From assembly GCA_027318475.1 (NCBI GenBank), contig DAHVPC010000003.1, positions 1 through 44,380 of the forward strand: a stretch of DNA of 44,380 bases, written 5' to 3'. Position 1 is the stretch's first letter. Each line of letters opens with the position of its first letter. Positions 14,795 to 37,957 of this stretch are shown piece by piece. The translations under genes and the position numbers were made by a program. The stretch is from Candidatus Cloacimonadota bacterium. GTDB taxonomy: Bacteria > Cloacimonadota > Cloacimonadia > Cloacimonadales > Cloacimonadaceae. The notes under the pieces are model-generated. The model made no database searches. It was not told the DNA's origin and worked only from the letters and a program-made list of their open reading frames with translations.

Positions 14795-16525
14795 ATGGCC
14801 AGCAAAAGCAGTGCCGAATTCTACGGCAATTTGAAAGAAATGTCTCCGATCCGCGCAATCGCCGAGACAATAGTGAACGGTCACAGCGTGCGCAAGATCG
14901 ATATCCGCGAAGCCTATGAAATGGCCAAGAACCAGCCCGGCGTAACCACGACCGATCTGCCCATCAACCCGGAATTCGTGCGGCTCCACAAGCTCCCAGC
15001 CGATGCCAAAGTCCTGAACGACTGCCATGGCAACATCATTGGCCGCACTGCCAAGGCCCGCCGTTTCTACCACCGGCTCAACCCGGCCCAGAAGAACAAG
15101 CTGGAAGGCGATTTCCGCGAGGCGGCATGGCAAATGCAGCATTATCCCTTGATCAAAACCGAGGCGATTTTGGGCATGGACCCGGACCTGATGATCAAAG
15201 CCACCTTCGTCACCACCGAAACCGATGTAGTGAACCTCTACAACTGGCTGCTGAACTTCGCGCCCTACGAGCAACTGCGGGAGCAATACGAAAAGAGCCC
15301 CAGCCTCCCCATCCAGGACATCATTCTCGTCGCCTTCAACGAATGGACCTGCGACGACCCCTTCTACAACAACGTCGGCGCTCCGCAATTGGCGCTGGTG
15401 GACGAGAAGCACAATGTGATCGTGAACCTGGGCATGCGCTACTTCGGCGAGCGGAAGAAAGGGACCCTGACCCTGGCCTGGACTTCCGGCATCCGCATTG
15501 GCATGGCCGCCTGCCATGGCGGAATCAAGGAGATCGACTTCACCAACTGCACCGATGCCTCGTACCATAAGCTGGGCAAGCGGTCCATCGCTTTCTACGG
15601 CCTTTCCGGCACCGGAAAATCCTCCCACACGAACAGCCACGACAACGCCGGCACCCTGCCCGCCGGCTTTGACAAAGTCGTCCTGCACGACGACGCTTTC
15701 CAGATCGACCTGGAAAACAAGCTCTGCCGCGTTTGGGAACCCACCCTCTTCGACAAAACCGATAGCCGTCCGCCCGACCATCCGGACTGGAAATACGCCT
15801 TGGCGGTGATGAACCACACGCTGCTGGAAATGGACGGCAAACGCATCCCCATCGGCTTGGACACCCGCAATTCCAATGGCCGCGCCTTGCTGGACCGCGC
15901 TTTGCTGGGCAAATACGTCAACCGCTGCGCCTTCCCCAAAGCCCTGGTCTGGCTGATGAAGGACTCCGTGCTGCCGCCGGTTTTGAAACTCAGCGACAAG
16001 AACCTGGCCATCGCCATGGGCGCCGCCCTGATGACCCAGCGTAACCGGGCTGAGAATGTGACCGAGGAGGAATTGAACAAGCTCGTGTTCGAGCCCTTTG
16101 CCAATCCCTTCCGGGTTTACGAACTCTACCGCGACGTGGAGGCTTTCCTGCACGTGGCCGAATCCGGCGCTGACATCTATTGCTTCAATTCCCGCGGTTA
16201 TTGGAAGGAATCCGACGACGTGCTGGAAGCCATTCCCTTGAAGACCTCGCTGACCCTGCAATCCGCCCTTCTGATGGATCAACTGGAATGGGAATCCTGG
16301 CCGGTACTGCCCGGAGCGATGATCCCTACCCAAGCGAGCATCGACAGGATCCTGCCCGGCTATTACGACCGCTATGACCCCGCAAAACGCGGCAACATGG
16401 ACAAGTACCTGGAACTGCTGAAAGACAGGTTCCAGCAACGCCAGGATTATCTGCAGGGAAGCGATCTGACCGAACGCCCCGAACTGCAGCAGGCGGTTGT
16501 TACCGCCCTCAAACTGAATATCTGA
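14795..16525 (+). CDS. pckA: Phosphoenolpyruvate carboxykinase (ATP-type)
   Basis: Interconverts oxaloacetate plus ATP with PEP, CO2 and ADP. 576 residues, a little longer than the usual 530-540. The kinase-1a P-loop GLSGTGKSSHT is near residues 268-278 and the metal/ATP segment LHDDAFQIDLEN near 307, with a matching C-terminal NPFRVYELYRDVEAF. It is a divergent ATP-type enzyme: the N-terminal part has extra sequence (about 120 residues before KATFVTTETDVVNLYNW). A strong ribosome site GGAGGAACC precedes ATG 14795. A clear terminator follows. In an amino-acid fermenter it may make ATP from PEP or feed gluconeogenesis. Confidence 0.88.
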   Translation: MASKSSAEFYGNLKEMSPIRAIAETIVNGHSVRKIDIREAYEMAKNQPGVTTTDLPINPEFVRLHKLPADAKVLNDCHGNIIGRTAKARRFYHRLNPAQKNKLEGDFREAAWQMQHYPLIKTEAILGMDPDLMIKATFVTTETDVVNLYNWLLNFAPYEQLREQYEKSPSLPIQDIILVAFNEWTCDDPFYNNVGAPQLALVDEKHNVIVNLGMRYFGERKKGTLTLAWTSGIRIGMAACHGGIKEIDFTNCTDASYHKLGKRSIAFYGLSGTGKSSHTNSHDNAGTLPAGFDKVVLHDDAFQIDLENKLCRVWEPTLFDKTDSRPPDHPDWKYALAVMNHTLLEMDGKRIPIGLDTRNSNGRALLDRALLGKYVNRCAFPKALVWLMKDSVLPPVLKLSDKNLAIAMGAALMTQRNRAENVTEEELNKLVFEPFANPFRVYELYRDVEAFLHVAESGADIYCFNSRGYWKESDDVLEAIPLKTSLTLQSALLMDQLEWESWPVLPGAMIPTQASIDRILPGYYDRYDPAKRGNMDKYLELLKDRFQQRQDYLQGSDLTERPELQQAVVTALKLNI

Positions 16526-16747: not shown

Positions 16748-18316
16748 TTAGCCCTGGCTGAGGCGGATGGAGAATTGATAGGTGGTTTTTTTGCTCACGC
16801 TAATCCGCCAGTTTTCCACGATGGACTTCACCTCTTGCAGGAACGATGAAGTGAAGGAGCCATTGGGGGTGATGGAAGCCACGACTTTGCCGCTTGCTTC
16901 AATGTACATGTTCACCTGGACCGAGCCTGATTGTGCGCGGATGGCGCTGCTACGGCGATAGGCCTGGGCGATCTGGTCCCGTTTCGGATACACTTGATCG
17001 TAGACATTGTCGATGTCCTGTACTCTTCCGGCAGCGGAACCGCGGATGCTGGCTTCCGAGAGTTTATTGACTTCGGGGGAGTTGAAGGTGAGGATGATGG
17101 GCTGATCTTTGGCGGAAATTGGGATGGGTTTGCGATCCGGAGCCAACGGTTCAAGGCGGGTGACATCACCCGTGTAGCGTTCTGCGGGGCGTTCCGGCTG
17201 TGAAGCTGACCCGCCGCCGGTATATCCGGTGAAGGGTTTGTTGATCGCTGGGGGAGCTGAATCGACCGCGTAGGGATCGAAGGTTCCCGGGTAGCCCGTG
17301 CCGGTTGACGATGAATAGCCGGAAACTCCGCCAGGTCCTGAACCTGGTCCGCTGCTGCCAATGCCGGTTCCGGCCCTTGCGGTCACAAATTCGTCCCAAA
17401 ACTCCGGATTGTATCCAGAGGAATTGCCCACAAAACGGCCAGCTGTGCCAAAGGGCGAGGTGCCAGAGCCAGTTCCCGCTCTACCGGTTCCTGTCCTGCC
17501 AGTTGGGGCTTGAGGCGTTTGGTTGCGGTCAGCCGGATTATCGCCGAGGCTTTCTTCCTCCCCGGTTACCTCAGGTGAACCCGCGATCCTGTCGACTTCG
17601 ATTCTTTGGGCGATCTCGGTCAGCACATCCTCCAAAGGCGCTGGTTTAACCACATCTGGCTTCAGGAACATGTCAAAGATCAAACTGAATACCAAGCCAA
17701 AGATCAGGAAGGAGAAGATCATCTTACGGTTGGCAAGTTCCCTGGGATCTGGCAAAGCGGGTTCCCGAATGACGTCTACGGTCCGCTGTTCTTCATCGGT
17801 TAACATCTTGCGGAGCGGTTTCTGGTAATCGTAAAGAATCTGATACTGGTCGTTTACCTCCACGGAGCCAGACATATCTGAACTTAGCAGAAGATCCGAA
17901 CCGTTTACCAGCAGTTTTTTTCGGATCAGATAGGTGACGTCGACCGGAACGCCGTTGCGCGTAAAGGTAAGCGGCGTGGCTCCAGGAGGCAGCTGGAGAT
18001 GGTACTCGTCGCCCTCCAGAGATATGAGTTTATGGCGGGAGGGGAAATCCGGATCAGCGCCCAGGATCTGCCAGAAGATACGTTTGCCTTTGCCGATGAA
18101 CCAAGCCCGGGTAAAATCCGTTCCTTGACGGATCGTATCCAGTATTTTCCCTTGGTACAGCAGTTTCAGGGTCAACACAGTCTCCGGGGGAGGGAGCGAT
18201 TTTCCGGTAAAACTACCCGTCAGCGTTTCACGGATATTCTGCCCAGCGTCCCTCATCCAACTTTTCAGCTGAGCCATTCCCCCCGGGGTGGATTTGGTAG
18301 TGCTATTCATAGTCAT
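16748..18316 (-). CDS. TonB-like energy transducer with large cytoplasmic domain
   Basis: 522 residues, last gene of the operon. Residues 1-198 are predicted cytoplasmic and contain a beta-rich domain (about 45-160; FPSRHKLISLEGDEYHLQLP recalls an FHA-type sandwich, weakly). One membrane helix is at 200-219 (IFSFLIFGLVFSLIFDMFL). Residues 250-380 are a flexible Gly/Ser/Thr/Pro linker (TGRTGTGRAGTGSGTS) suited to crossing the periplasm. The C-terminal 90 residues match the TonB/AgmX-type fold: VQVNMYIEASGKVVASITP, FLQEVKSIVENWRIS, YQFSIRL. TonB-like proteins carry force from an ExbB/ExbD motor to outer-membrane partners. Most TonBs have almost no cytoplasmic part, so this one may receive a signal inside the cell; it resembles gliding-motor components of myxobacteria in layout. 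AAGGAGG precedes ATG 18316. Confidence 0.8.
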   Translation of the reverse strand: MTMNSTTKSTPGGMAQLKSWMRDAGQNIRETLTGSFTGKSLPPPETVLTLKLLYQGKILDTIRQGTDFTRAWFIGKGKRIFWQILGADPDFPSRHKLISLEGDEYHLQLPPGATPLTFTRNGVPVDVTYLIRKKLLVNGSDLLLSSDMSGSVEVNDQYQILYDYQKPLRKMLTDEEQRTVDVIREPALPDPRELANRKMIFSFLIFGLVFSLIFDMFLKPDVVKPAPLEDVLTEIAQRIEVDRIAGSPEVTGEEESLGDNPADRNQTPQAPTGRTGTGRAGTGSGTSPFGTAGRFVGNSSGYNPEFWDEFVTARAGTGIGSSGPGSGPGGVSGYSSSTGTGYPGTFDPYAVDSAPPAINKPFTGYTGGGSASQPERPAERYTGDVTRLEPLAPDRKPIPISAKDQPIILTFNSPEVNKLSEASIRGSAAGRVQDIDNVYDQVYPKRDQIAQAYRRSSAIRAQSGSVQVNMYIEASGKVVASITPNGSFTSSFLQEVKSIVENWRISVSKKTTYQFSIRLSQG

Positions 18317-18334
18317 GGTTCCTCCTTGATCTGC

Positions 18335-18895
18335 TTAGCTTGCTGTGTTGCCGCGATTCAACCATTCCTGATCCAGAAGCGTGGCGAAGTATATAAAATC
18401 AAAACTGGAGCTTGTACCCAGCTTTACCAGTTCCGTGATGTAGAAGCAGGGGATCGACCGGTCCGCCTGGATCAAGAGGGCAGTCTGCGTGATGGGATTT
18501 CCGTATTCGTCCTTGTTCTTGAGCGTCTCGCTGGCGGTATATCTGAGGTAGGAAAGCAACTCAACGCGTTTCTTGGGGTTGGACCTGAAATCTTGCAGGC
18601 TGCCAAACTCGGTGCCCAGTTCTCCGATCAAGATGCGGTTGGGATAAACCTGCAGGACCGTTGTGCCGCTTTCATTTTGCAGATCGGGTTTAGTCATGGT
18701 GACCGGGAAGCGCATGTTGTTGGGCATGGTGATCTTCTGTCCCTCCATGGAGACATTTTGGATGAGAAAGACCAGCAGAATGGTCAAAACATCTACCAGC
18801 GAGGTTATGGATAGGGCAGGCACATCTTCAAACTTGTGCCTGATTTTCCGGTTGTAATTCTCTTTGTTCAGTTGCTTTTTAACTATGCTTCTCAT
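18335..18895 (-). CDS. ExbD/TolR-like subunit with the ion-carrying aspartate
   Basis: 186 residues. A basic cytoplasmic tail (1-24) precedes a single membrane helix (about 30-48), then a periplasmic domain. D35 in the helix (SLVDVLTILLVFL) sits where ExbD/TolR/MotB-type stators carry the protonatable Asp. The periplasmic part is longer than usual, with an insertion around TASETLKNKDEYGNPITQ, and ends with the typical QADRSIPCFYITELV strand-helix. AGGGAG precedes ATG 18895. It is expected to pair with the Asn-bearing homologue just upstream and the ExbB-like channel. Confidence 0.82.
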   Translation of the reverse strand: MRSIVKKQLNKENYNRKIRHKFEDVPALSITSLVDVLTILLVFLIQNVSMEGQKITMPNNMRFPVTMTKPDLQNESGTTVLQVYPNRILIGELGTEFGSLQDFRSNPKKRVELLSYLRYTASETLKNKDEYGNPITQTALLIQADRSIPCFYITELVKLGTSSSFDFIYFATLLDQEWLNRGNTAS

Positions 18896-18917
18896 AGGTA
18901 CTCCCTAACAATCCGCG

Positions 18918-19415
18918 CTACCTCAGCGGCCTGTAATGGATTACAGAAAAACCGTTGAACCTGCAGATGTCGATGGTCTTGATCAGGTTGTCGTATAACA
19001 CCTCATCAGCTGGAGCAACGTTGATGTCGGCAAGAGTGGGGTAGTTTGTCTTGACCTGTTTCAGAGCGGTGTCTAAACTGGCAAAATCGTAGCGGTCACC
19101 TGTCAGTTCAATCTTTTGAGTGGCTCCAGGCTCTCGGACTTCGAATCCCGGAGAGCCTCCGCTGCGGGAATTGGGAGCCCGGATGACCACCCAGACCTGG
19201 GTCGTATTCCTTCTACCTCCAGTACCTGCCGGTGCATTTGCCGGGCCGGAACTCTGGTTGAAATTCAGTACGATCAGAGCCACTTGCGAGACAACCAGCA
19301 TCACGAGCAAAAAGGGTACGATCGTGAGGAAGAGATTCATCACCGGCACCAGATTGGGGACCACTGGAGCCGATGATGAAACTTGGTTTCTGACGGCTGA
19401 GGGTCGGTAGGCCAT
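18918..19415 (-). CDS. ExbD-like subunit with Asn in place of the ion-carrying Asp
   Basis: 165 residues. One membrane helix (about 22-50) follows a short cytoplasmic tail. The usual P-x-x-D of ExbD is P-V-M-N here: N27 replaces the proton/sodium-binding Asp (codon AAT, 19337-19335). The periplasmic domain (about 75-165) keeps ExbD features: a strand region, DTALKQVKTNYPTLADI, and a final strand IHYRPLR. A Gly/Asn/Pro-rich stretch (55-70) links helix and domain. It begins 4 bases after the channel gene, with AAGGGA at the overlap. Likely an assembly or force-transmitting partner rather than the ion-carrying subunit. Confidence 0.78.
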   Translation of the reverse strand: MAYRPSAVRNQVSSSAPVVPNLVPVMNLFLTIVPFLLVMLVVSQVALIVLNFNQSSGPANAPAGTGGRRNTTQVWVVIRAPNSRSGGSPGFEVREPGATQKIELTGDRYDFASLDTALKQVKTNYPTLADINVAPADEVLYDNLIKTIDICRFNGFSVIHYRPLR

Positions 19416-19419
19416 GTTC

Positions 19420-20253
19420 TTATCCCTTGGTGGTAATGCTGATGTAGTTGATTAGTTTTACGCAGTATTCGTCGATCTCGTTGATAATGCGCTGGGCCTT
19501 GGTAAACAGCGCGCCCTTGATCAAGGTGAGCGGTATGGCCGCCAGCAATCCCAGAGCCGTGGTTCCAATGGCGGTTTTAATGCCTTCGGTCAACAAGGTA
19601 TTGCGGTCGGAAGCGATCAAGGTTCTGTCGCTTAGGGAACTGAAAGCGTAGAGCAAACCCCAGATCGTTCCCAACAGACCCAGATAGGTGCAGATCTGAG
19701 CCAGGGTATCAAACCAGAAAAGTCCGGCATCGAGTTTGTACACGCTCTGCAGTACGGCTTCGTCAAAGGCATTCTGGACTGCGGGCCCCAGGTCTTCCTG
19801 CTTGGTTTTATCCCGGGAATCCCGATAGACCGACAAACCGCTGAAGAAAATGAACCCCAGGGTGGTTTCCTTGAGTTGTTCGGCGATGGTGATGGCTTCA
19901 TTGATCTGGTTGTTCTTGAGATAACCTTTCAGGCTTTTATACATGTTGGCGGCGTTGATCTTCTCATTCAGGAAGAGCTGCCGGGCACGGATAATGCCAT
20001 ATACCAACCCGATAATGAAAGTCAGCAGGATCATGTAACCGAATACACCTTGCCTGTTGCTGTCGATCCATACGCTCCACAGGGTAACTTGCGCACCTTT
20101 AGCATCTTCAACCTGGGATACGGAGGAACCTGCGTCCGTTTCCTCAACAGGTTGATTCTGGCCTTCTTGCGGCGCAGTTTGATCCTGGGCGTTCAATGCG
20201 CTCAGTGCCAAGATCAGCAGCAGAATTGCGATGATGATATGTTTGGCTTTCAT
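19420..20253 (-). CDS. ExbB/TolQ/MotA-type proton (or sodium) channel
   Basis: 277 residues. Unusually for the family it begins with a signal-peptide-like segment (1-22) and a 40-residue acidic, Gln-rich stretch before the first core helix (72-88). Core helices 2 and 3 are at about 183-204 and 229-248, with the conserved LGLLGTIWGLLYAF and GIKTAIGTTALGLLAAIP; the large cytoplasmic loop lies between helices 1 and 2. These are the channel-lining segments of ExbB and TolQ. ATG 20253 is used: it overlaps the previous stop (ATGA) and has GAGGAG upstream; the longer frame starting at 20271 lacks this. It forms the stator with the two ExbD-like proteins that follow. Confidence 0.88.
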   Translation of the reverse strand: MKAKHIIIAILLLILALSALNAQDQTAPQEGQNQPVEETDAGSSVSQVEDAKGAQVTLWSVWIDSNRQGVFGYMILLTFIIGLVYGIIRARQLFLNEKINAANMYKSLKGYLKNNQINEAITIAEQLKETTLGFIFFSGLSVYRDSRDKTKQEDLGPAVQNAFDEAVLQSVYKLDAGLFWFDTLAQICTYLGLLGTIWGLLYAFSSLSDRTLIASDRNTLLTEGIKTAIGTTALGLLAAIPLTLIKGALFTKAQRIINEIDEYCVKLINYISITTKG

Positions 20254-20555
20254 TTGGACTCCTCTAGCCATTTATTTAACTCCATTTGCCAGTCGGCGAG
20301 TTGTTTCCGGCTCTCCTTTCTGATGTCTTCTTTGCTTATGGTGAATGGATACTTGCCAGCCGGAACATAAGTATCCTTCTTGGTCTTCACGACGAAGCCC
20401 GGTTTGGGAAGAAATGATTTGAGTTCAATGACCATTTCCTGGGGAGCGCGAGAAAATCCGCCTTGCCCGGAAGAAGTGGTTGGGGGACGGGTGCCCTGGC
20501 TCCAAGCCAAGCCGCAGGCAATGGTGAACAAGAGGATGAGAATCGCTTTGGGCAT
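20250..20555 (-). CDS. Small secreted protein, unknown, in the ExbB/ExbD operon
   Basis: 101 residues with no family recognised. A signal peptide (1-20, ending in AWSQ) is followed by a Ser/Gly/Pro-rich stretch, a small beta-like region (MVIELKSFLPKPGFVVKTKK, then YVPAGKYPFTISKEDI) and a charged helical C-terminus. It is predicted to be periplasmic. It starts 2 bases after the TPR gene stop and its stop overlaps the channel gene by four bases, so it is firmly part of the operon and likely a component of the same machine. Confidence 0.7.
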   Translation of the reverse strand: MPKAILILLFTIACGLAWSQGTRPPTTSSGQGGFSRAPQEMVIELKSFLPKPGFVVKTKKDTYVPAGKYPFTISKEDIRKESRKQLADWQMELNKWLEESK

Positions 20556-20557
20556 GG

Positions 20558-23500
20558 TTACTCCTTAACCGCCCTGGTAAGGGAAACTTCGGCCAGGAAA
20601 CCCCGATAGGGCGACGTATTCTGGATTTCCACCCGCAGGGTGTTTTGACCCTTGAGCATGTGTTCTTTAGGCAGGGTTACCCGTTTGGGAAATACGATAA
20701 ACTCGGGTTCCGTGTCGTATTCGTAACTATAATTGTCGATCAACAGCTGGCCATTCAGATACAGCGAGGCTGTCTCAGGCGCTACGAAATCGATGAATCC
20801 TTCCCGGTACTGGGTCTCCATATCAAAATCGAATTCCAGGATGACATTGTTCCTGGGGGCGTCCACACTCTCCGGAACCCAAATAGGTTCAGCGATGGAG
20901 TTGGCAAGTTCTTTCACCTTACTGACAGGCAGACTGAAATCGGCGGCAAAGATCGCAGGATTCCGCTCCGATTTTCCCGTCAGGGGATTCACCGCAACGG
21001 ACATCCATGCGTTACTGCTGGGATATGTGACTGTTTCCGAAGGCAATTTGGCGATGATCATCTCCACGTCAAAAACAACGCTGGCGCTGAAGTCCAGCGG
21101 GACAGGAGCTGGGGTGCCGTTGTAGAAAACTACTTTCAGGGTGTTGGTAGTCTCCTTCCAGGATTTGCCAGCCAGACGGGCTGCATAACGCTGTGCATAT
21201 TGGCCGTTGTGGGACAGGGAATCCACCGGCAGATATGCGGGATCGATTTTAACATCATTGATGTACACCTGGGGATTGTTGATGTAGGCCAGATGCATGA
21301 ACATGGCGGAGGGGGCTATCCTGCCGGTGAACTCACGTTCCACTATCAATGAATCCTGGGCTGGGATGGTGTAGGATCCCAAGGTGTAACCCAGTGTGGT
21401 GGCGACAGTGGAAAAACCTGAAATGCCGCTCGAGGAATCTCGTGCGGCTTTGGCAGAAGTGACCTTCCATTCGGAATTGAGAGGATAATAGGTTACCCGG
21501 TAATCCGGCAGAAGAGCTCTGGATTTTAGGGTGCTTTCCGCCTTGAGAGTGAACTGATCGGAATATCCCGCCAGGGTATAGCTGTCGTAGATTTCGCGGA
21601 AGATGCCGGAGGAAATTGAGCGGTGCTTGGCGATATATCCTTCGGCGTTCATCAGCGTCCGCACCATGTTCTGAACTTGTTCTTCGGAGTTATTGTCGCG
21701 ATAGTCTTTCATTTCGTTGGATATCTCCAGATACCGGATAATGCGGCTTTCAATGGCATCGGCGGTATGGTCGTTAATCCGGCAGATGAGGTCCAGGGCG
21801 CGCAGTCTCTGACTGGTGGATAGATATCTGGATTCGGGTTGCTTCAGCAAGTCGGTGATAATCTGGTATTCCTGATCAGCCGTGTTGCTCAGGATGGGAA
21901 TCCGCCTGACACCGCCAAAGAGGTGTCCCATCCAGCTAGTGCGGGGCAGGATCGTGATCAGGTCCGAGGGGCTGCTTTTCAACAGGGCACCCTGCTCCAC
22001 CGCTCTGATCTGTCGCTCATACTTTGCCAGATAGTCGTTCTTCGCCTGCAGCTCACGATATTCCTGTTCAGCGACCGTAAAGGCCTGATAGGCCAAAGTG
22101 GTATCCAACGGCAGTTTCTCGCGCCTGTAAACAGCTTCCACTTTCTTGTAATCATCGCGCTTCTGGAAAGCTAGTTTCCAATCTAGCTGCTTGTAAGCTG
22201 CGTCAAACTCCGTCACGATCTTGTAGAGTTTCCCGGCAGCTATCCGTTGATAGATCGCATATTGTCTGTTGTCTTTGAGAAAGAGTTCCCGGGCGTAGAA
22301 TTCGTGTTTCTCCTCATCATTGCGCGCGGCATACTGGTTGGCCATGAAAGTAAGGTATTCAGTTACCCTGGAATGTTTGGGATACAGGTCGATAAACCTG
22401 TCCATGAGTTCCAGGACCTTGTCCGTGTTCTGGTCTTCGTTGTAGAGCTCTATCGCCCTAATAAATATGGACTCGGCGGTTTCATCGCCGCTGTTGATTT
22501 TTTTGGCTTTAACCTGGTCGTGCAGTGCCAGCAGTTGGTTCGCGGCTTGGGCACGTTGCCGGGGATTTTGGGCCAAAGTGTTTATCGACTCGTTTTGCAG
22601 CCTGAAAGCATAATTGCTGGTTGGCGCCAAGGCTATGAAAGCATTTTTCAACTCAGTAACTCTGGCTTCATCGTTCATCAGTGAGTCAGCGATGCCCCAG
22701 CAGTCGAAATACAGGGAGTATTTCTGATCCAGGTTGTCGGTGGTATCGACCAAACCTAGTTTGACGTTGATCGCCTCATCATACTTCTGAGCCCGGATGT
22801 ATGCCTGGGCGGCATTCTCCCGGTTACCGACATATTTGTCCTTATCGATCTTGGAGCCTTTGTATTCGTTGGAAATGCGGATGTATTCCCGGGCAGCCAG
22901 TTCGAAATCACCATTCTGTTCGGCCAGATCTATGCCAGTTTGGATTTGCATCCTGATTTCATGAATGATCGCGTCCTGGTCTTTCTTGTCGCTGGCGTAC
23001 TTAAGAGCGTTGCGGAAGGCAGCCTCAGCTTCTGCGAGGTTGTTTTCCCTTTGGGCGATATCCGCCAAAGACAGATAGATATCCCTATTGATATTGCGGC
23101 CCAGGCTGGTTTCCAGTTTGAGCAAGTCGCGGAAACTTGCCTTGGCTTCGGTCAGCAAGCCCTGGCTGATTTGGATGCGTGAAAGTTTAAGAGTCACCTG
23201 GACCGCTGTCTGGCGTGTTTTTTCCGAGGCATATTCGGGCATGCTGAGCACGGAGAAAAACCTGGAGGAAGCGTCACGGTAGAACTGATACAGAGAGTCC
23301 CGGTTGGCAGGTAAACTTTGCGCGGGAGTGTACAGGGAATCGACGAAGCTGGCTGTCATGCCCTCATAGATTCTATCTACGAACACGTAGGCAGTGCCTT
23401 CATTATCGTAGAAGGAGGGGTTTGCCGGATATTTGTCATTATATGTCCAAAGCCCCTGCACAGCCTGGAACAGGTCTTCAGTTGTACCGCTTTTCTCCGC

Positions 23501-26476
23501 GATAGACGCCAGCGCCGCGACCTCCTCGCTGTCGATCTCAGCGATCCATTGGTCATAGGAATCGCCGAACAACTCACGGCGTGGACGATAGGAGTCCATA
23601 TGGTCGTGATAGGCCTTGATTGCTGCGTGGTCCGCCGTTGAGATCATAGCATTGTACAAGATGACCCGGGTCTGATCGTAAGCTTTCCTGATTACCTGGA
23701 GTTGTTTCTGAACTCCGGGCAGGCTGATGTCTTGGTTCTCGAGATTATGCCGCTGCCAATCGGATCCGGTATTGTAGAGGTCAATGATGCGTTGATAATA
23801 GTCCGCTTTGATCTGGGTAAGATCCATTTCGGAGCGGAATTCCAGCATAGGTGTGTGATAGAGGGTGATGATGGAATCCAACACCGTCGGATTTTGCAAC
23901 GCCAGGGGATCGAGCTTAAGCCGCAATTCCAGGAAATCTATAGCTTGCAAGGGTGCTGGCATCTCTGCCTTGATCTGGGCTGCCTTGTCCAGGATCCGGG
24001 TTTTGATTTCCAGATCCGGATAATCGCCCACAGAGGTATTGAACCTGGCTATTCCCTTGGCAGGGGCTTTGAACTCCGAACCGTCCAAGGTGGCCAGACA
24101 GATGCCGATATTTTCCACAGAGCTGCTCTTGTAATCATCCGCCACAGACTGATCCTGTATCAACTTGTCATCTACTGCCCTTACCAGAAAGACAAAGTCG
24201 TCCACAGCTTCATTCAACGAAGGCTCGTCAGACTGGTTCATGTTCAGCCATCCCCTTTGGTAGATGGCTTCATAATGATATTTGCTATCTGGATTGTCGG
24301 CCAGCAATCCAAACAAGCGCCGGGCTTCATTGTAATACAAGATCGGATCTTGCGAGTCCACTCCCAAGACGAAATATAAAACCCCGAGACGGTACAAGGC
24401 CTCATCATAGAGAGGGGAATCACGCCAACGCTCTTCCTGAGTAAGTTCCCTGAATGCCGCCAGAGATTCCTGAAAATCTGTTGCCTGGTACTTGTAGATG
24501 ATATCTGTTCGGGGAAGCCTGGGATTCGTTTCGCGGGCTTTGTTAAGCCTGTTATCGATCTCGTTTTTCTTGAGTTCGCTGCCGATGTAGGCGATGTTAT
24601 AGAGAGCGTTGTCCCGCAAATGGTATTCCGGCTCGATTTCCAGCACCTTGCGATAATAGGCGAGGGCTTTTTCGGGATGGTCGAAATCGACCGCGTACTG
24701 GAGTTCCGCCATGTTGTAATAGAGATCTGCAGAGCTGAGCAGATAGCCTCCGCCTGGTTGTTCCAGCGATTGGAATTCCGGATTCTGGGCGATAAAATCC
24801 TGATACCGTTTCAAGAGGCTGGCTTTATCGGCTACGATCTCCTCGAAGGGTTTCACCAATTCGTTTTCGCTTATCTGTGTACTCTGCGCCTGACGCTGCA
24901 GATCCAGGTAGTGCAACCTGCGATAGTCGATCTGGAGGTCAAGGAAGTCCAGATTGGTAACAACGAAAGCCAGATTGCCGCTCAAGGTGGGGTTGTCCAA
25001 TGACACTTGTGCAGCTTCCGTCTGCTGTTTCACGATAACTTTCTGCTTCTCCGAGAAGTATTTTTCGGTGATCACCTTGCGCATACCCTCTTCAGTGGCG
25101 GGAAGCTCGCGGGCGAACTCCATTTTTATCTGGCTGAGATTCCTGTAGTCATCCCAAGCGGCTGTAAACATCTCCTCTTCGGCCTTGTTCTGATGCTTGC
25201 GGAAGGCCTGGTAACGCTCTTTCCGGATCTGGAGGTCGGCCAGTTTTTCCTCATATTCCTGGCGTTGAGGCCTAAGGTCGATGTTCAGGGTGGCATATCC
25301 CGGCTCTGCCAACAAAGCGTCGATGGATTGGATAACTTCAGTGTACAGGTCGATGTTTTTCTGGATCTCGATCAGACGCTTCAGTTCCATATCGCTGAAA
25401 CCAGTGCCCAGCACAGCAGGATCTTCCTGCAGATACAACTGGTAGCGCCCCTCCAGGTAGTCATCCACCTGGGCTAATTTGCTGGACAGCTTCTCAGAGT
25501 AGTCCTTGGCTTCGATCAACTTTGCAGCTTCTTTTTTATAGATGTTGAAAGACTGGATCTCCACTTCGGTCCAGGTGGCCGTGCTTGGTTCCTCCTTGGC
25601 CAGGATCTGGAAATCCAGAGGCGGGATATAGCTGTAAAACTTGAGTTGCTGCTTGAAATTTTCCAGGATCTTGTTTTCCCGTGTGGAAATGGAATCCAGT
25701 GAAGAAGGATCGAGATACAGGGACTTGGTTTTGAACTCCTCATACAGGTTTCCCAAGTCCTTCTGGATCGCATTGATCGAATGCTCCAGGGCCTGATACT
25801 CAGAATCTGTCGGGTTTTGGAAAAATCTGTTCAGATCCAGGGCAGCTAAGCGGGCGAGTATGTCTTCCTTGCGGGGCTTGAAAGTGTCCTGCATCCAATC
25901 CCGATAAGCGGCATACCGGTTTCGATAGAGCTCGACTTTGGCAAATTCCCCATTTTCTGCCAATGTGTCCAGAAGCAGGTAAAGAAATGTGGGGTAATGC
26001 TTTCCGATAGGGTAGTTGTTGATCGCGTCTTCGAGGAAAGCCAGTGTAGCCGTGGAATCACCGTTCTGAAACAACACGTTCGCCTGATAGAATAACAGTA
26101 GATCCAGCATCCGGCTGGCTTCTGCGCCTAGTGCGGGATCAGAGGCCAGGGACCGGAAGTATGGCAATGCTTGCTGAATATCCGTCAGTTCAGCGTAAAA
26201 CTGGCCTTCCAGAAATGCCGCGGAGCTTTGATCAAGTTTCTGCAGGCTTCTGCGCTGTTCAAGGAATTCCTGTATGGCAGCCGGCCGGTTCGTTTCGGAG
26301 ATTTGAGGTAGGCGTTCCTGGATAAACTGCATTGCAGCCTGGACCTCCGGATCAGCGTAAACGCTCTTCAGCGCATTGGCTCCCAACCCGGATTGAGCGT
26401 ACAAGCCCAGCCCTGCAAACAGAAGCAGCATGCACAGAAAACCGGATTGCAGTTTGCTACTGATGGTCACCCACAT
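20558..26476 (-). CDS. Giant (1972-residue) periplasmic TPR-repeat protein
   Basis: Exported by an N-terminal signal (about 1-27, ending LGLYAQ). Most of residues 30-1560 is alpha-helical and rich in tetratricopeptide-like units, for example YYNMAELQYAVDFDHPEKAL, LAYYRKVLEIEPEYHL, DSPLYDEALYRLGVLYFVLG and SLADIAQRENNLAEAEAAFR. The last 350 residues switch to beta-rich sequence; the region ending TASLYLNGQLLIDNY and KGQNTLRVEIQN resembles a galactose-binding/jelly-roll lectin-like fold. TPR solenoids assemble complexes, so it could form a long periplasmic scaffold between the inner-membrane motor and the outer membrane. In Myxococcus gliding machines TPR proteins fill this place, but no direct homology is claimed. 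The ribosome site is weak (GGTGA); the gene follows the barrel gene by 128 bases. Confidence 0.82.
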   Translation of the reverse strand: MWVTISSKLQSGFLCMLLLFAGLGLYAQSGLGANALKSVYADPEVQAAMQFIQERLPQISETNRPAAIQEFLEQRRSLQKLDQSSAAFLEGQFYAELTDIQQALPYFRSLASDPALGAEASRMLDLLLFYQANVLFQNGDSTATLAFLEDAINNYPIGKHYPTFLYLLLDTLAENGEFAKVELYRNRYAAYRDWMQDTFKPRKEDILARLAALDLNRFFQNPTDSEYQALEHSINAIQKDLGNLYEEFKTKSLYLDPSSLDSISTRENKILENFKQQLKFYSYIPPLDFQILAKEEPSTATWTEVEIQSFNIYKKEAAKLIEAKDYSEKLSSKLAQVDDYLEGRYQLYLQEDPAVLGTGFSDMELKRLIEIQKNIDLYTEVIQSIDALLAEPGYATLNIDLRPQRQEYEEKLADLQIRKERYQAFRKHQNKAEEEMFTAAWDDYRNLSQIKMEFARELPATEEGMRKVITEKYFSEKQKVIVKQQTEAAQVSLDNPTLSGNLAFVVTNLDFLDLQIDYRRLHYLDLQRQAQSTQISENELVKPFEEIVADKASLLKRYQDFIAQNPEFQSLEQPGGGYLLSSADLYYNMAELQYAVDFDHPEKALAYYRKVLEIEPEYHLRDNALYNIAYIGSELKKNEIDNRLNKARETNPRLPRTDIIYKYQATDFQESLAAFRELTQEERWRDSPLYDEALYRLGVLYFVLGVDSQDPILYYNEARRLFGLLADNPDSKYHYEAIYQRGWLNMNQSDEPSLNEAVDDFVFLVRAVDDKLIQDQSVADDYKSSSVENIGICLATLDGSEFKAPAKGIARFNTSVGDYPDLEIKTRILDKAAQIKAEMPAPLQAIDFLELRLKLDPLALQNPTVLDSIITLYHTPMLEFRSEMDLTQIKADYYQRIIDLYNTGSDWQRHNLENQDISLPGVQKQLQVIRKAYDQTRVILYNAMISTADHAAIKAYHDHMDSYRPRRELFGDSYDQWIAEIDSEEVAALASIAEKSGTTEDLFQAVQGLWTYNDKYPANPSFYDNEGTAYVFVDRIYEGMTASFVDSLYTPAQSLPANRDSLYQFYRDASSRFFSVLSMPEYASEKTRQTAVQVTLKLSRIQISQGLLTEAKASFRDLLKLETSLGRNINRDIYLSLADIAQRENNLAEAEAAFRNALKYASDKKDQDAIIHEIRMQIQTGIDLAEQNGDFELAAREYIRISNEYKGSKIDKDKYVGNRENAAQAYIRAQKYDEAINVKLGLVDTTDNLDQKYSLYFDCWGIADSLMNDEARVTELKNAFIALAPTSNYAFRLQNESINTLAQNPRQRAQAANQLLALHDQVKAKKINSGDETAESIFIRAIELYNEDQNTDKVLELMDRFIDLYPKHSRVTEYLTFMANQYAARNDEEKHEFYARELFLKDNRQYAIYQRIAAGKLYKIVTEFDAAYKQLDWKLAFQKRDDYKKVEAVYRREKLPLDTTLAYQAFTVAEQEYRELQAKNDYLAKYERQIRAVEQGALLKSSPSDLITILPRTSWMGHLFGGVRRIPILSNTADQEYQIITDLLKQPESRYLSTSQRLRALDLICRINDHTADAIESRIIRYLEISNEMKDYRDNNSEEQVQNMVRTLMNAEGYIAKHRSISSGIFREIYDSYTLAGYSDQFTLKAESTLKSRALLPDYRVTYYPLNSEWKVTSAKAARDSSSGISGFSTVATTLGYTLGSYTIPAQDSLIVEREFTGRIAPSAMFMHLAYINNPQVYINDVKIDPAYLPVDSLSHNGQYAQRYAARLAGKSWKETTNTLKVVFYNGTPAPVPLDFSASVVFDVEMIIAKLPSETVTYPSSNAWMSVAVNPLTGKSERNPAIFAADFSLPVSKVKELANSIAEPIWVPESVDAPRNNVILEFDFDMETQYREGFIDFVAPETASLYLNGQLLIDNYSYEYDTEPEFIVFPKRVTLPKEHMLKGQNTLRVEIQNTSPYRGFLAEVSLTRAVKE

Positions 26477-26577
26477 TTCGTCACCATAGATGATAGAGGC
26501 TGTTGTCCACCAGATGGCAGATGCTTGCCGTCATCCAACAGCTGTGGATGCAGATTTTGCCAAACCATCGATTTCAT
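26467..26577 (-). CDS. Possible 36-residue ORF between barrel and TPR genes
   Basis: The frame of the upstream barrel gene stays open for 45 codons after its TAG stop, and an ATG at 26577 could start a 36-residue peptide (MKSMVWQNLHPQLLDDGKHL, continuing to VTKCG). Its TGA overlaps the ATG of the TPR gene by 10 bases, as expected for coupled genes. There is no strong ribosome site. A frame this long is also common by chance, so this is a weak call. Confidence 0.25.
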   Translation of the reverse strand: MKSMVWQNLHPQLLDDGKHLPSGGQQPLSSMVTKCG

Positions 26578-26604
26578 CTGCGCTTGCAAGATCCCGCTCC
26601 GAAC

Positions 26605-28032
26605 CTATTCTTTCTTGTCCTTAAGGTCCTGCATCCATTTACGCAGATCATCAATCGCTTTTTGCGCTTTTTGCCGCTCGAGGCGCACACTACGCAGCTC
26701 CGCAAGCAGATCCTTCAACTCCGGGGAGAGTTCTTTGTTGTAAACACCCGACTCCTTTATTCCCAAAGGTTTGGGTGATTCCGTAGTTGTTTCCGGAGTA
26801 GTCGGGGTCACCAGGACCGCCACTTCCATTGGTTTGAATTCTGGCTGGTCAGGCGGCAGTTCCTTGGGCGGATAATCGATCTTTGCAATGTCTATCTCAT
26901 TAGCAGTGACCGACTCAGCCTGGGATGGGACAGGGATCACTATTTCAGTAACGGGCGATTCTGGTTCAGTGACCGTCTCGGTGGCTGGTTCAGGCGCAGT
27001 TCCAGGAACTGGTCCAATTGGTGACTCAGTCGTAACTTCGGGCTGTGTTGCGACCATCGGTACAACGATCTCCGGTGTATCTGTCTCAATCACAGGCTCT
27101 GTTTCACTTATGGGTTCATTATCTGCAGGAGTTTCTACTTCGGCTTCAGGTTCGAGTTCCGATGGCTGAGCCTGGGTCTCCTTGGGCTGTAGGTCAATCG
27201 TGGGTTCCGGAACGGGTTCAAAGATGGGAGGAGGCGGAGACGGCTTAACGCCTGGCTTGTACTGATAGGAGAAGCCTATTGCCAAGCGGGCGTTGCCTTC
27301 GTAGCCATTGCCTTCGGAACCCTTGGCCCAGTCCTCGGTAGCCTGAGCGCCTACCCGCACAGCAAAGTCCTTATAGGCATACTTGAGGCCGAAATTGAAG
27401 TCCTTTCCATCATACTCGCCTTGCAGGGCGATGTTCTTCCAAGGGAAAATCTCGATCGAGGTGAATGCCCCCTTTAGGAACTGCGAGCGGGGAACCTGTC
27501 CATAGTATCTGCTTAATCCCAGCCCCAGATTGAACATCCAGTTTATCCCACCCAAGACAGCCCTTTTTGATAAAACAAAATAGGGGGAGAAGTGTTCATA
27601 GTCTGTTTTATCCGGATGGTCTGCGAATTCCCATTCTGCGGGATCATGGTACAATTGCGACTGAATCCTGTTGACCGGGGAAAATATGTTGTCCATACCA
27701 ACGGTGAGTTGGGGGAAGCGCTCCGTTTCGGTCAGGACCTTGAGCTTGGCGTTCATGAAATATACTTCATCACCCGCAAACATCCCCAACTGGACCCTAT
27801 CCAGGATTCCCGCTGCCAGCATCCCATAGGGGATGAAGCCGTTTTGATCGGGGTCCACATCACTGGGAGCGACCACATTCCTATAATAGCCCACCAGTAA
27901 AATTTCAATGCCTTTATGCGGCAACAGGTAAGCGTCTGGAGTCCGCAACAGACCCAGAGTCTGGAATGGCGCGGCTACGCTCAAACCGGCCAATGTTGCA
28001 AGAGTTATGATGCTCAGGATGACTTTTTTCAC
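26605..28032 (-). CDS. Outer-membrane beta-barrel with Pro/Glu-rich tail and coiled coil
   Basis: 475 residues, first gene of the operon. A signal peptide (1-21) precedes a beta-barrel domain (about 22-275) with alternating aromatic strands; GLLRTPDAYLLPHKGIEILL and LQGEYDGKDFNFGLKYAYKD resemble YjbH-type outer-membrane proteins. Residues 280-430 are a long Pro/Glu/Thr/Val linker (PSPPPPIFEPVPEPTIDLQP, ETEPVIETDTPE). The last 35 residues form a charged coiled coil (LAELRSVRLERQKAQKAIDD). Such a linker could reach across the periplasm toward the cell wall or the TonB-like protein. GTG 28032 is chosen for its GAGGGA site and because it begins the signal peptide; the extra 13 codons upstream are unlikely. 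Starts divergently from yraN. Confidence 0.75.
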   Translation of the reverse strand: MKKVILSIITLATLAGLSVAAPFQTLGLLRTPDAYLLPHKGIEILLVGYYRNVVAPSDVDPDQNGFIPYGMLAAGILDRVQLGMFAGDEVYFMNAKLKVLTETERFPQLTVGMDNIFSPVNRIQSQLYHDPAEWEFADHPDKTDYEHFSPYFVLSKRAVLGGINWMFNLGLGLSRYYGQVPRSQFLKGAFTSIEIFPWKNIALQGEYDGKDFNFGLKYAYKDFAVRVGAQATEDWAKGSEGNGYEGNARLAIGFSYQYKPGVKPSPPPPIFEPVPEPTIDLQPKETQAQPSELEPEAEVETPADNEPISETEPVIETDTPEIVVPMVATQPEVTTESPIGPVPGTAPEPATETVTEPESPVTEIVIPVPSQAESVTANEIDIAKIDYPPKELPPDQPEFKPMEVAVLVTPTTPETTTESPKPLGIKESGVYNKELSPELKDLLAELRSVRLERQKAQKAIDDLRKWMQDLKDKKE

Positions 28033-28042
28033 GCTTCCCTCA

Positions 28043-28102
28043 AGATATTGGATATCTGTGATGTTTACCACACTTCAAACTCATTGACACAATTCCCGTC
28101 AA
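28043..28102. promoter_or_regulatory. Divergent control region with two inverted repeats
   Basis: Between the barrel gene and yraN lie AGATAT-TGG-ATATCT (28043-28057) and TTGAC-N9-GTCAA (28084-28102). The second gives a TTGAC-type -35 box in both directions; matching -10 boxes are poor (TTTGAA for the barrel gene). A shared operator and overlapping promoters are possible. Confidence 0.3.
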
Positions 28103-28117: not shown

Positions 28118-28498
28118 ATGGCACACAGGACCGCGAAAGAACTTTTCCATCTCGGGGAGGACCTTGCCGCCAATTATCTGGTTGGCAAAGGGCTGGAAAT
28201 TGTGGCCCGGAACTACCGCACAACCCAAGGCGAGGTCGATATCATTGCCTGTGATGCTCACAATCTTGTTTTCGTTGAAGTCAAGACCAGGTCCAAACAC
28301 TCTGTCCGCCAAGCCTTACGCAACGTTGCCTACACCAAGCAGAAACGCCTTTCGGCCGCTGCTCAGTATTTTGTAGTCCAGGATACATCTTGGGAAAACC
28401 ACCGCATCCGATTTGACATCATCGTCGTACTGCATTATGCCGACACGGATACATTCAAGATAGAGCATCTTCAAGACGCTTTCACTCCTGTCTTCTAA
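28118..28498 (+). CDS. yraN: UPF0102/YraN-family nuclease-fold protein
   Basis: 126 residues, typical for the family. The restriction-endonuclease-like core is intact: E (LGEDLAANYLVGKG), then GEVDIIACDAHNLVFVEVKTR, giving the E-D-ExK type metal site near residues 38-56, followed by A-x-N-x-x-x-x-K-Q-x-R-L helix features. Family members are small DNA-binding proteins of uncertain role, sometimes linked to Holliday-junction processing or competence. ATG 28118 has no clear ribosome site (a T-run precedes), so the message may be leaderless or translated weakly. Confidence 0.88.
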   Translation: MAHRTAKELFHLGEDLAANYLVGKGLEIVARNYRTTQGEVDIIACDAHNLVFVEVKTRSKHSVRQALRNVAYTKQKRLSAAAQYFVVQDTSWENHRIRFDIIVVLHYADTDTFKIEHLQDAFTPVF

Positions 28499-28627: not shown

Positions 28628-29962
28628 TCAGTTGTCCAGCAGCGAGGTATCAAAGTCTTCGCCCAAATATCTCAGATAGTCTGGATTGGTGTTTTCCCTG
28701 TCGTCGTTACTGACGTAAAGCAGTTTATAGTTGCCGTTCAACTGCAGGTCCACGAATAGATACACGGCGTTGATCCCGCTGCTGTACTTCCAGATCTGAT
28801 AATCTTTACGCACAAACCTCGTCTCATCGGATGAGGTATCGCTGGTGATCTCGTCAGGTTTCCCATTGCGGATGTGGATGCGTCCCCGGTCGGTGGTCCA
28901 GCCGGGTTCGAAGTGCCCGAAAAACCGGTTCGCGTAGTCCACGCGTTCGCTGATCCTGTCCAGCATCATCTGGGTGTTCATGTTGTTGGACTGCGCCCAG
29001 TATTTCCAGGTTTGGCTCACATACCTGCGCTTGGTGGGTTCGTCGTAGTTTTTCCAGTCCGTAGTGAGGCCCCCAGCAATAAAATAGCGCAGCAACTGAA
29101 AATCGTCGTCCGGATTGGGAAAAATAGAGTAGTTTTCCTGTTTGGGTTCCGTAACGAAGAAGTCAAAATCCCGCTCGGCCGATTGTTCGCCCAGTTGAAG
29201 CATCAAACTGCCCGAGTATTTACCAGGTTTGAGTTCGCTGAGGGGTATCTTAAGCGTGATGCGGTCGATGTCGCCATCAGGATTGAAGTCCAGATAGTCG
29301 TCGCTGACGATCACGCTGTCCTGTTCCACGGTCAAGACCAGCAGGCTGGATTCGTTTCGCTGCGCCTCCCTGGTGTAAACTTCAAAGAACAGGTTCACGA
29401 AATCGCTTTCGGTCTTATCAAAAATGAGCGACGGTTGGGTCTTGTAAAGGGTGTTGCCGCGATGGAATTTCCCCAGATAGGATGAGCTGTCGGGGCGTAC
29501 CGCGCTGCACAGTTCGAGGTCGCTGAGCAGGCTTTCCGGCGGCAAGGGTTCAGCGGGAAAAGACCACGCGAAGATCCTCTGCGAGTTCAGGTCTGTCGCC
29601 CGGAAACGAAACTCATAGGCCTTGCCGCTGAGATTGAAACTTGCCCGGTTGAGATAGGTTTTGGCGGAGCGGGCGTCGTCCTTGTTGGAGATGCCAATGT
29701 TATCCCGGATTGCCTGGCTGAATACTACGCTGTCTTGTTCCACCACTTCCACCACTACGTCCACCTCGGCGAAATATCCGCCTTTATGAGCCAGGAACAC
29801 CAAGTTGTTGTAGGGTATCTGGTAATCAACATGGATGATGGTGTTCTTTTCGGAATCCAAAAACCTCTGCGTGCGTACGTGCATGTTCAGATTATCCAGC
29901 GCGAAAGCGTGCGCACAGGCCGCCAGTAAAACGCACAGAACTAATTGTCTAATACTCCTCAT
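28628..29962 (-). CDS. GWxTD-domain secreted protein (first of two)
   Basis: 444 residues. A signal peptide (1-22, ending AHAFA) leads into beta-sandwich regions (about 30-270) and a C-terminal GWxTD domain: FGHFEPGWTTDRGRIHIRNG near residues 350-369, followed by KPDEI. GWxTD is a domain of unknown function common in Bacteroidetes, Ignavibacteria and candidate phyla, usually in exported proteins. The gene overlaps its paralogue upstream by 14 bases and has GAGGAAC before its ATG 29962. The two products probably form a pair or complex in the periplasm or at the surface. Confidence 0.85.
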   Translation of the reverse strand: MRSIRQLVLCVLLAACAHAFALDNLNMHVRTQRFLDSEKNTIIHVDYQIPYNNLVFLAHKGGYFAEVDVVVEVVEQDSVVFSQAIRDNIGISNKDDARSAKTYLNRASFNLSGKAYEFRFRATDLNSQRIFAWSFPAEPLPPESLLSDLELCSAVRPDSSSYLGKFHRGNTLYKTQPSLIFDKTESDFVNLFFEVYTREAQRNESSLLVLTVEQDSVIVSDDYLDFNPDGDIDRITLKIPLSELKPGKYSGSLMLQLGEQSAERDFDFFVTEPKQENYSIFPNPDDDFQLLRYFIAGGLTTDWKNYDEPTKRRYVSQTWKYWAQSNNMNTQMMLDRISERVDYANRFFGHFEPGWTTDRGRIHIRNGKPDEITSDTSSDETRFVRKDYQIWKYSSGINAVYLFVDLQLNGNYKLLYVSNDDRENTNPDYLRYLGEDFDTSLLDN

Positions 29963-31064
29963 CTTTGTTCCTCAGTTTATATTGGCCAAATCCGCCGGTA
30001 TCGGCAAATTCGAACTCCAGGTTCTGGGCATAATAGATCCAGACGATATAGGGATACAGGTCAAGGGGGTGCACTTCGCTATGCACCTCATCTGGTTCTC
30101 CATATTTTATATATATTCTACCCCTGTCGGAGTTCCATCCCTGCAGTCTTTTATGGATTGTATAGCGCTCATCGGCGATTACCACCCTCTGGTAGAAACT
30201 TTCCCGGGCCTCGTTGCGCAAGGTTCCCGGGCTGGGATCATGCATCTGCCAGAACCTTTCGATCACTTCCGGATACATCTCTTCAGGAACCGACCGGATG
30301 CTTTTCCACTCGTTCTGATTGGCGACGTAGCGCAGCTGCTGGATTTGGTCGGCGTAGCTGTAGCGGAAGTTGTAGGAAAACCAGCGGTCGTACCAAAAGG
30401 GTTCCATGTTGTAGCGGATGTTATCTTCAAAAAAACTGATCCTGACGCTTTTCACGCCGCCTTGATTCACGAGTTCAGCCAGCTCGGCCGAATATCCTCC
30501 CGGCATCGCAGTATACCCTGAAAGAAAGTCATCCACCCAAACCTGGATGCTATCCACTGGGGCGGAGAACTTTTGCCGGATCTCGCAACTCTGCACTGGC
30601 AGAGGCAAAGACGCTAATCCGGAGGGCATGAAACTGACGCCGTCCTTGCTGGCCAAAAAATAGGCCTGGCCTATCTCCGTGTAGTTTTCCTGCACGATCA
30701 GGGTCTTCTTGAGGTCGATCTTTTCGCCGGGGCTCAGGTTCTTGATCCTCACGGCCGCCTGGTACTTTCCGGGCTCCAAAACCGCGGTCAGGAAAACCGG
30801 GATCGCCGTGTCCCGCAACCAGTCACGCCGGGGAATGTCCAGATTTACGGTTTGGTCAAATACCTGGCGCTTATCCTTGTTCTTGATCTGCAGGGTCAGT
30901 TGATACCGGGCGGAAGTCTCTGCTTGCTTGAATATTATGGTGTTGTAAGGAATTACCACCCAGAAGTCCAAGCCCTGGGGGTAATGCTCGAAGATGATCT
31001 CCTGAGCGCTCAGGATCGTGCACAAGAACAGCAGGCAAGCCGCGCAGCTAAGCGTTTTTCTCAT
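29949..31064 (-). CDS. GWxTD-domain secreted protein (second of two)
   Basis: 371 residues. A signal peptide (1-20, ending ILSAQ), a beta-sandwich N-terminal half and a C-terminal GWxTD-type domain with the variant GWNSD: RLQGWNSDRGRIYIKYGEPD near residues 318-337. It shares the fold and order of its neighbour, so the pair looks like an old duplication. Its ATG lies inside the end of dnaE (17-base overlap in a different frame), which ties its translation to the polymerase gene. Why a replication gene and two exported proteins share a transcript is unknown. Confidence 0.85.
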   Translation of the reverse strand: MRKTLSCAACLLFLCTILSAQEIIFEHYPQGLDFWVVIPYNTIIFKQAETSARYQLTLQIKNKDKRQVFDQTVNLDIPRRDWLRDTAIPVFLTAVLEPGKYQAAVRIKNLSPGEKIDLKKTLIVQENYTEIGQAYFLASKDGVSFMPSGLASLPLPVQSCEIRQKFSAPVDSIQVWVDDFLSGYTAMPGGYSAELAELVNQGGVKSVRISFFEDNIRYNMEPFWYDRWFSYNFRYSYADQIQQLRYVANQNEWKSIRSVPEEMYPEVIERFWQMHDPSPGTLRNEARESFYQRVVIADERYTIHKRLQGWNSDRGRIYIKYGEPDEVHSEVHPLDLYPYIVWIYYAQNLEFEFADTGGFGQYKLRNKDEEY

Positions 31065-34870: not shown

Positions 34871-35221
34871 CATTTGCTTGATGAATATGGCTTTATTCGG
34901 TCCTGATGAGTAAACTTCGTATCATCAAAGTAAGTTCACATCTAAGATTAGGATAGGCTTCAAATTGACAGACTTCTAGCTGGTTTTGGATTGTTTACTG
35001 CCATTCAAAGGACCCTGTAAAAAAAGGCGCATTGCGAATGCTAGTAACATTCGGCTGATAGCGTCAATTCTTCTCCCGATCAAGGCAAAGCAAAATACAA
35101 CCTGAGTACGCTAATAACGCAAATAAGGAATATCTGACAGACATCAGATAAGAAATCTCTTTACAACTTATTCAGCTCAAACTCTTTGATTCCCAAAGCC
35201 TTTTCAAGGAGTAATCAGAAA
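34871..35221. other. AT-rich spacer upstream of the secreted protein gene
   Basis: No gene seen. CGAATG-N7-CATTCG (35035-35053) is a short inverted repeat. A TTGACA at 34965-34970 has no fitting -10 box. AGGAG about 10 bases before ATG 35222 is the likely ribosome site. Confidence 0.4.
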
Positions 35222-37831: not shown

Positions 37832-37957
37832 GGTTGGAGGTTTTGGGCAGCGCCGTGGGGGATGCCGCTCAGAAAAAATACTTGCCTAAAACGGAAAGGC
37901 TTAATTTTTGGTGCAAAATTAGCGATTTTGACTCGTAATGAGCCATTGGGAGCGTCA

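Follow-up and report, generated by a model that had tools for sequence, protein, structure and literature searches.

What does a bacterium of an almost uncultured phylum do with seven genes that encode a TolQ/ExbB-type motor, a transducer, a giant tetratricopeptide repeat (TPR) protein and an outer-membrane β-barrel? The genes lie in a 44,380-nucleotide stretch of DNA from a Candidatus Cloacimonadota bacterium (assembly GCA_027318475.1, contig DAHVPC010000003.1, positions 1 to 44,380 of the forward strand; hereinafter the window, meaning the whole stretch that was analysed). They form seven adjacent open reading frames (ORFs), all on the minus strand, at 16748-28071. An earlier reading of the letters alone (hereinafter the sequence-only reading) had described seven genes on one strand that encode every layer of a force-transmitting envelope complex. 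All ORFs are found at the coordinates it gave, and all the layers it named are right, as judged from Pfam, AlphaFold/Foldseek and relatives. The operon is a variant of the AglRQS-GltG type, whose motor has common ancestry with that of the Agl-Glt gliding machinery, and is not a strict member of the Agl-Glt core. We consider it fairly probable that it encodes a proton-driven, envelope-spanning traction machine built on this core. The genes and their main parts are the following.

26605..28071, minus strand: outer-membrane β-barrel protein, YjbH-like, 488 amino acids (aa) if read from the first GTG, with the true start likely at 28032 (Pfam YjbH, AlphaFold, Foldseek)
26611..26724, minus strand: helix at the C-terminus of the barrel protein, following a disordered Pro-rich linker (AlphaFold helix, conservation in relatives)
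20558..26476, minus strand: giant exported TPR protein, 1,972 aa (weak Pfam TPR matches, homologues)
20558..21580, minus strand: C-terminal jelly-roll-like domains of the TPR protein (profile match to carbohydrate esterase FI8, Pfam CBM-like match)
20250..20555, minus strand: small exported protein, 101 aa (position between TPR gene and ExbB in most inspected loci)
19420..20271, minus strand: TolQ/ExbB-type channel, AglR-like, likely true start 20253 (PF01618, channel threonines, tree)
18918..19415, minus strand: ExbD1, first TolR/ExbD-type stator, with Asn for the proton-binding Asp (PF02472, alignment)
19335..19337, minus strand: Asn27 codon of ExbD1, the position of E. coli TolR Asp23 and ExbD Asp25 (alignment)
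18335..18895, minus strand: ExbD2, second TolR/ExbD-type stator, Asp retained (PF02472, alignment)
18791..18793, minus strand: Asp35 codon of ExbD2, the proton-binding position (alignment)
16748..18316, minus strand: GltG-type transducer with β head, one transmembrane helix, disordered linker and TonB-type end (NF033768, AlphaFold, hhalign)
17807..18184, minus strand: cytoplasmic β head of the transducer, probably FHA-like (AlphaFold, homology to head domain 2 of Fermentibacteria GltG)
17663..17746, minus strand: transmembrane helix of the transducer (AlphaFold helix 191-218, hydrophobic)
16760..17032, minus strand: TonB-type C-terminal domain of the transducer (Foldseek, NF033768)

The ExbB protein matches the MotA/TolQ/ExbB family of Pfam (PF01618) with an E-value of 5e-20, and the TolQ-type channel threonines T202, T237 and T238 are invariant. 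In a maximum-likelihood tree of 54 sequences, several of them on long branches, the operon TolQs and the Glt-linked TolQs form one clade with support of 100/98. Outside this clade lie TolQ and ExbB of E. coli as well as the other two copies in the window genome (C133 and C25). The few additional copies inside it comprise two unassigned ones and copies of genes of the operon or of Glt-linked loci. The nearest motors outside the phylum are in loci with GltG-family matches, specifically a Bacteriovoracia locus (GltG, 1.9e-24; GltC, 1.8e-31), a deltaproteobacterial locus (GltG, 2.4e-37) and a Fermentibacteria locus (GltG, 1.2e-16). By its place in this tree, the operon motor shares a branch with the Glt-linked motors of Myxococcus-type gliding machines.

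AlphaFold predicts that the transducer has a β head (residues 47-165) and a single transmembrane helix (191-218), followed by a disordered linker leading to a TonB-type end (429-519), and Foldseek returns TonB C-terminal domains first (best 3.4e-3). The TonB_C Pfam match of the window protein alone is weak (0.075, below the cut-off); the identity of the transducer is settled by its relatives. The AgmX/PglI (GltJ/GltG) C-terminal model NF033768 of NCBIfam matches 16 of 18 members (best 1.6e-8; window protein alone 0.015, below the cut-off), and surpasses the TonB model both in the number of members matched and in the quality of the matches. When separate domains are compared with hhalign, the end domain aligns with Fermentibacteria GltG at 1.2e-7, with deltaproteobacterial GltG at 2.9e-5 and with a further GltG-type end at 4e-4, compared with 0.02-0.03 for TolA from E. 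coli or the TonB of this genome and 0.12 or worse for reversed controls. The full-length GltG model NF033760 matches neither the window protein (E up to 1) nor the members (E up to 0.1). The head region matches the Fermentibacteria profile at 2.6e-11; specifically, the head aligns with head domain 2 of Fermentibacteria GltG at 1.6e-6 but not clearly with the Pfam FHA domain of Bacteriovoracia GltG (0.11), and Pfam FHA gives no match to the head domain itself. In the model, the head is probably an FHA-like sandwich. Judged from the profile comparisons, the transducer is homologous to GltG-type transducers.

Short separate proteins (~140-190 aa) that consist mainly of the transducer C-terminal domain are encoded at G074:C97:15083-15391, G031:C99:5883-6176, G015:C16:103252-103548 and elsewhere; they were treated as other genes, apart from the transducer. 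Proteins of ~920 aa that match a Pal/OmpA-type domain together with the transducer's TonB-type end are found at G031:C21, G026:C25 and G021:C1 (near 1879000).

The two stators differ at the proton-binding position. ExbD1 matches PF02472 at 1.7e-9 and ExbD2 at 1e-4, the latter below the curated cut-off. The ExbD1 residue aligned with Asp23 of E. coli TolR is Asn in each of the 72 distinct sequences from Cloacimonadota and in 5 of 11 from elsewhere (Fermentibacteria and deltaproteobacteria), the other six, from Bacteriovoracia, having Asp. ExbD2 has Asp in 70/70 Cloacimonadota sequences and 81/81 overall. A proton-binding Asp in both stators is a trait of Agl-Glt, and M. xanthus AglQ and AglS are both described with it (PMC9389320); this trait is absent here, ExbD1 having Asn. 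In M. xanthus, AglQ D28N stops the motor and abolishes function (PMC3858216). An ExbD1-ExbD2 heterodimer is favoured because an ExbD1 homodimer would have no proton site, and the alignment suggests that the stator pair is probably such a heterodimer with one working site. PMC9389320 poses as an open question whether the two MotB-like subunits of AglRQS pair with each other or each with itself; the fixed Asn/Asp pair bears on this question, and favours heterodimers with one active site per pair. The sequence-only reading described the two stators and overlooked the Asp-to-Asn change in one of them, which, as read from the alignment, is a new observation.

The outer half of the set differs from that of Myxococcus-type gliding machines. 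The barrel protein matches Pfam YjbH at 1.4e-4 (below the curated cut-off), as do 10 of 19 relatives (best 9.1e-8). In its AlphaFold model, 12 strands lie within residues 55-271, and a long disordered linker leads to a C-terminal helix (450-487) with a predicted local distance difference test score mostly of 85-93; the helix is conserved in relatives. Foldseek finds small outer-membrane pores and porins (best 2.9e-6), and a PDB sequence search with the barrel profile gives coiled-coil and chance matches only. Pfam TPR matches to the 1,972-aa protein are weak and below curated cut-offs. In several other families, this protein is encoded by two genes, of about 670 and 1,300-1,500 aa (L102-L117, L130; L051, L052, L055, L056, L058). 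The profile of its C-terminal part matches the jelly-roll region (278-369) of carbohydrate esterase FI8 at 2.8e-5, and a Pfam CBM-like domain (PL4 domain III) is matched in 5/17 members (best 0.0015). The small protein has a short strand-like motif before Pro, from which we infer a candidate TonB-box-like element. Its gene lies between the TPR gene and ExbB in most loci inspected, as scored by eye at the loci, the automatic profile having drifted (119 hits). In comparison with Fermentibacteria profiles, the barrel and the TPR protein are homologous to their counterparts there, at 2.6e-32 and 1.9e-16, respectively.

The set is conserved throughout most of Cloacimonadota. When named genomes were scanned with the ExbB alignment, the matches were 69 Cloacimonadota contigs, among them Candidatus Syntrophosphaera thermopropionivorans, and after them Bacteriovoracia, deltaproteobacteria and Fermentibacteria. 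This bears out the phylum at which the sequence-only reading had guessed. On the 69 contigs the gene order is constant as far as each contig extends. In relatives it reads dnaE, one or more GWxTD genes, a reversed yraN-type gene, barrel, TPR, small gene, ExbB, ExbD1, ExbD2 and transducer, with parts missing or the contig ending in a few of them. The barrel is present in 51/61 and the TPR protein in 52/61 genomes of the order, mostly side by side, and the transducer in 88/125 genomes of the phylum (53/71 good genomes). Chance arrangement is excluded because gene set and order recur on 69 contigs and in relatives whose operon proteins are down to about 20% identical. Co-occurrence across the phylum had been set beforehand as a test of the sequence-only reading, and the genes do co-occur, phylum-wide. 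In family f10 of the same order, the transducer is in none of the listed genomes, and searches for the barrel and the TPR protein are likewise negative.

A second copy of the operon or transducer is found in some Cloacimonadota (L123 and L127, both of isolate NIOZ-UU4; G039:C7, G127:C51), which recalls the Glt/Nfs duplication.

Which known system is the operon closest to? Like the Agl-Glt core (AglRQS plus GltC, D, E and G; Luciano et al. 2011, PMC3169522), it has one TolQ, two TolR proteins, a TonB-ended GltG-type transducer and a long periplasmic TPR protein in one cluster. It differs from that core in its giant or split TPR protein with a jelly-roll end, its YjbH-like barrel, the Asn of ExbD1, the lack of a GltC match and of MglA, and its fixed place beside dnaE and the GWxTD genes. 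It is not a strict core member because the tests for GltC, for the full-length GltG model and for a two-Asp stator pair were all negative. The Fermentibacteria operon (L138, L139) has barrel, TPR protein, TolQ, two TolR proteins and transducer in the same order, with an Asn/Asp stator pair; it differs in a TPR protein without the jelly-roll end, a longer two-domain transducer head, and MglA genes in the genomes. The Agl-Nfs spore-coat machine of M. xanthus (PMC3858216) is alike in motor type and in a GltG-like transducer that moves a glycan-tied outer complex, and sugar-related folds occur here too. Unlike in that machine, Nfs outer proteins are not matched in the operon. To our knowledge, sporulation is not known in Cloacimonadota. 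Tol-Pal shares the TolQR-type motor and a one-transmembrane-helix transducer with a TonB/TolA-type end, but here TolB and Pal are not found above cut-off, the two TolR proteins are different from each other, and the tree position is another. The YjbH/GfcD exopolysaccharide barrels (PMC9603273) are matched by sequence profile in the barrel region, whereas here the barrel is single with a helical tail, not double, and no OPX or exopolysaccharide genes adjoin it.

The resemblance to Agl-Glt that the sequence-only reading had seen in the layout thus extends to a motor clade shared with Glt-linked motors and to a transducer homologous to the GltG type. For the same two reasons, its term "undescribed machine" is too strong for the kind of machine; for this phylum, a limited literature search (phylum name with gliding and with motor names) found no paper on the operon. 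The absence of Tol and Pal genes, which it had noted for the operon, is supported for whole genomes (neither TolB nor Pal scores above cut-off), and no TonB receptor gene is among the operon genes, as it had said.

In the mechanism that we propose, protons would pass through a TolQ-type pentamer around a TolR-type pair, in which only ExbD2 would supply the proton-binding Asp. The motor would work the one-transmembrane-helix transducer, whose head may sense or dock something cytoplasmic; in M. xanthus, AglR binds GltG (PMC3169522). The TonB-type end of the transducer would cross the wall on the disordered linker and engage a short strand of either the small protein or the outer complex. The latter would consist of the giant TPR protein and the YjbH-like barrel and would be pulled or moved along the envelope, in keeping with the cyclic pulling of Agl-Glt through the wall on its outer partners (PMC5349195) and with the movement of surface polymer by AglRQS with Nfs (PMC3858216). 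As in Agl-Nfs, the load would most likely be an assembly of the outer membrane or of surface glycan, and whole-cell gliding is less likely. The sugar-related folds (YjbH-like barrel, esterase-like jelly-roll) suggest a glycan or glycan-linked load, and the dnaE-adjacent place together with the breadth across the phylum suggests a general envelope role rather than gliding.

Several points weigh against this traction reading. The machine is a prediction from sequences and structure models, and the operon is without a cargo gene. The Glt comparison set of the tree was drawn from similarity matches to the operon's own ExbB and is without M. xanthus AglR. No GltC (NF033756) match is found in the window protein set. 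The homology of the TPR protein may stem from repeat bias, which likewise weakens any link with the TPR proteins GltD and GltE. Foldseek matches of the transducer head are weak, including Rad53, an FHA-domain protein, and IRF association domains, which have the SMAD/FHA fold in common with it. Finally, family f10 is without the operon, so the operon is dispensable in some lineages.

Other explanations account for part of the evidence. One, to which we give a fairly low probability, is that the machine substitutes for Tol-Pal, pulling the outer membrane in at division and keeping it attached. TolB and Pal models score above cut-off in 0/61 genomes of the order with positive controls, the operon is nearly phylum-wide at one place beside dnaE, and in M. 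xanthus Agl-Glt has been connected with constrictions of sporulating cells (PMC5349195). However, OmpA-type domains and β-propeller proteins occur below the cut-offs, so divergent Pal or TolB is possible; the outer parts are unlike TolB or Pal; and family f10 has neither the operon nor above-cut-off TolB/Pal. A wider proposal, in which a phylum-wide housekeeping motor with a fixed asymmetric, one-proton-site stator pair takes over outer-membrane maintenance without Tol-Pal, seems rather unlikely. We give a similarly low rank to an aid to polysaccharide or protein export, with the barrel as exit pore and the motor opening the pore or driving a plug. The barrel is YjbH-like and its Foldseek matches also include polymer, oligosaccharide and amyloid pores (FapF, KdgM, PelBC), but such matches are common to small porins in general and their TM-scores are low to moderate, the operon is without a glycan synthesis or OPX gene, and Agl-Glt/Nfs act after export (PMC3858216).

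Gliding, in which the motor would carry adhesin complexes along helical paths as it does in Myxococcus, is supported by the common motor clade and the GltG-type transducer, but is quite improbable. The polarity switch MglA is found in 0/41 genomes of the order compared with 6/6 comparison genomes, with the same M. xanthus query, no GltA/B/H/I/J set is recognised in the operon, and the literature search gave no report of gliding in Cloacimonadota. A specialised TonB-type nutrient uptake system would also use TolQ/ExbB, ExbD and a TonB-type domain, all present here; it is nearly discounted, the operon being without a TonB-dependent receptor, the genome encoding another TonB (5.6e-17) at C25 together with an ExbB and an ExbD that belong to it, and the motor and TonB-type end being set apart from the classic ones in the tree and the domain comparisons.

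The 2011 survey of gliding-type motors (PMC3169522) covered Proteobacteria and one Fibrobacter, and Cloacimonadota is not among the phyla listed there. Motors of this type were known earlier from a handful of lineages; here the same branch is a fixed feature, at one genomic place, of most of an almost uncultured phylum. Its other outer half and the lack of the gliding switch bear on the role of the ancestral core before gliding arose.

The layout is compact. The gaps are 128 bases from the barrel gene to the TPR gene, 2 from the TPR gene to the small gene, 4 from ExbB to ExbD1, 22 from ExbD1 to ExbD2 and 18 from ExbD2 to the transducer gene. Read from its first ATG, ExbB overlaps the small gene by 22 bases; if it starts at its seventh codon, another ATG, which has a better Shine-Dalgarno-like stretch than the first, the overlap is 4 bases. 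Such a stretch precedes most of the seven ORFs. The boundary of 28032 given earlier is an internal GTG that matches the start in relatives, while the barrel ORF opens at 28071. The conserved locus is also wider than first described, with dnaE, two GWxTD genes and the reversed yraN-type gene before it and usually a gene after the transducer that is priA-like by its start in relatives. The neighbouring feature is given below.

28628..31064, minus strand: two GWxTD-domain genes, upstream neighbours (Pfam 3e-10 and 1.7e-13)

Where the contig of a relative extends far enough, the operon mostly has at least one GWxTD gene next to it, and the literature search found no paper naming the GWxTD domain. 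The yraN-type (UPF0102) gene, at 28118-28498 on the opposite strand, lies between the GWxTD genes and the barrel gene in most relatives.

Elsewhere in the window, 14795-16525 encodes a PEPCK-like protein that matches the ATP type only weakly (2e-10), 35186-36574 a protein with a FlgD Ig-like domain and a weak match to a type IX secretion sorting tail, and 36710-37831 an N6/N4-type DNA methylase. The gene at 37862-39280 is RnfC, probably the first of an Rnf-type electron transport cluster.

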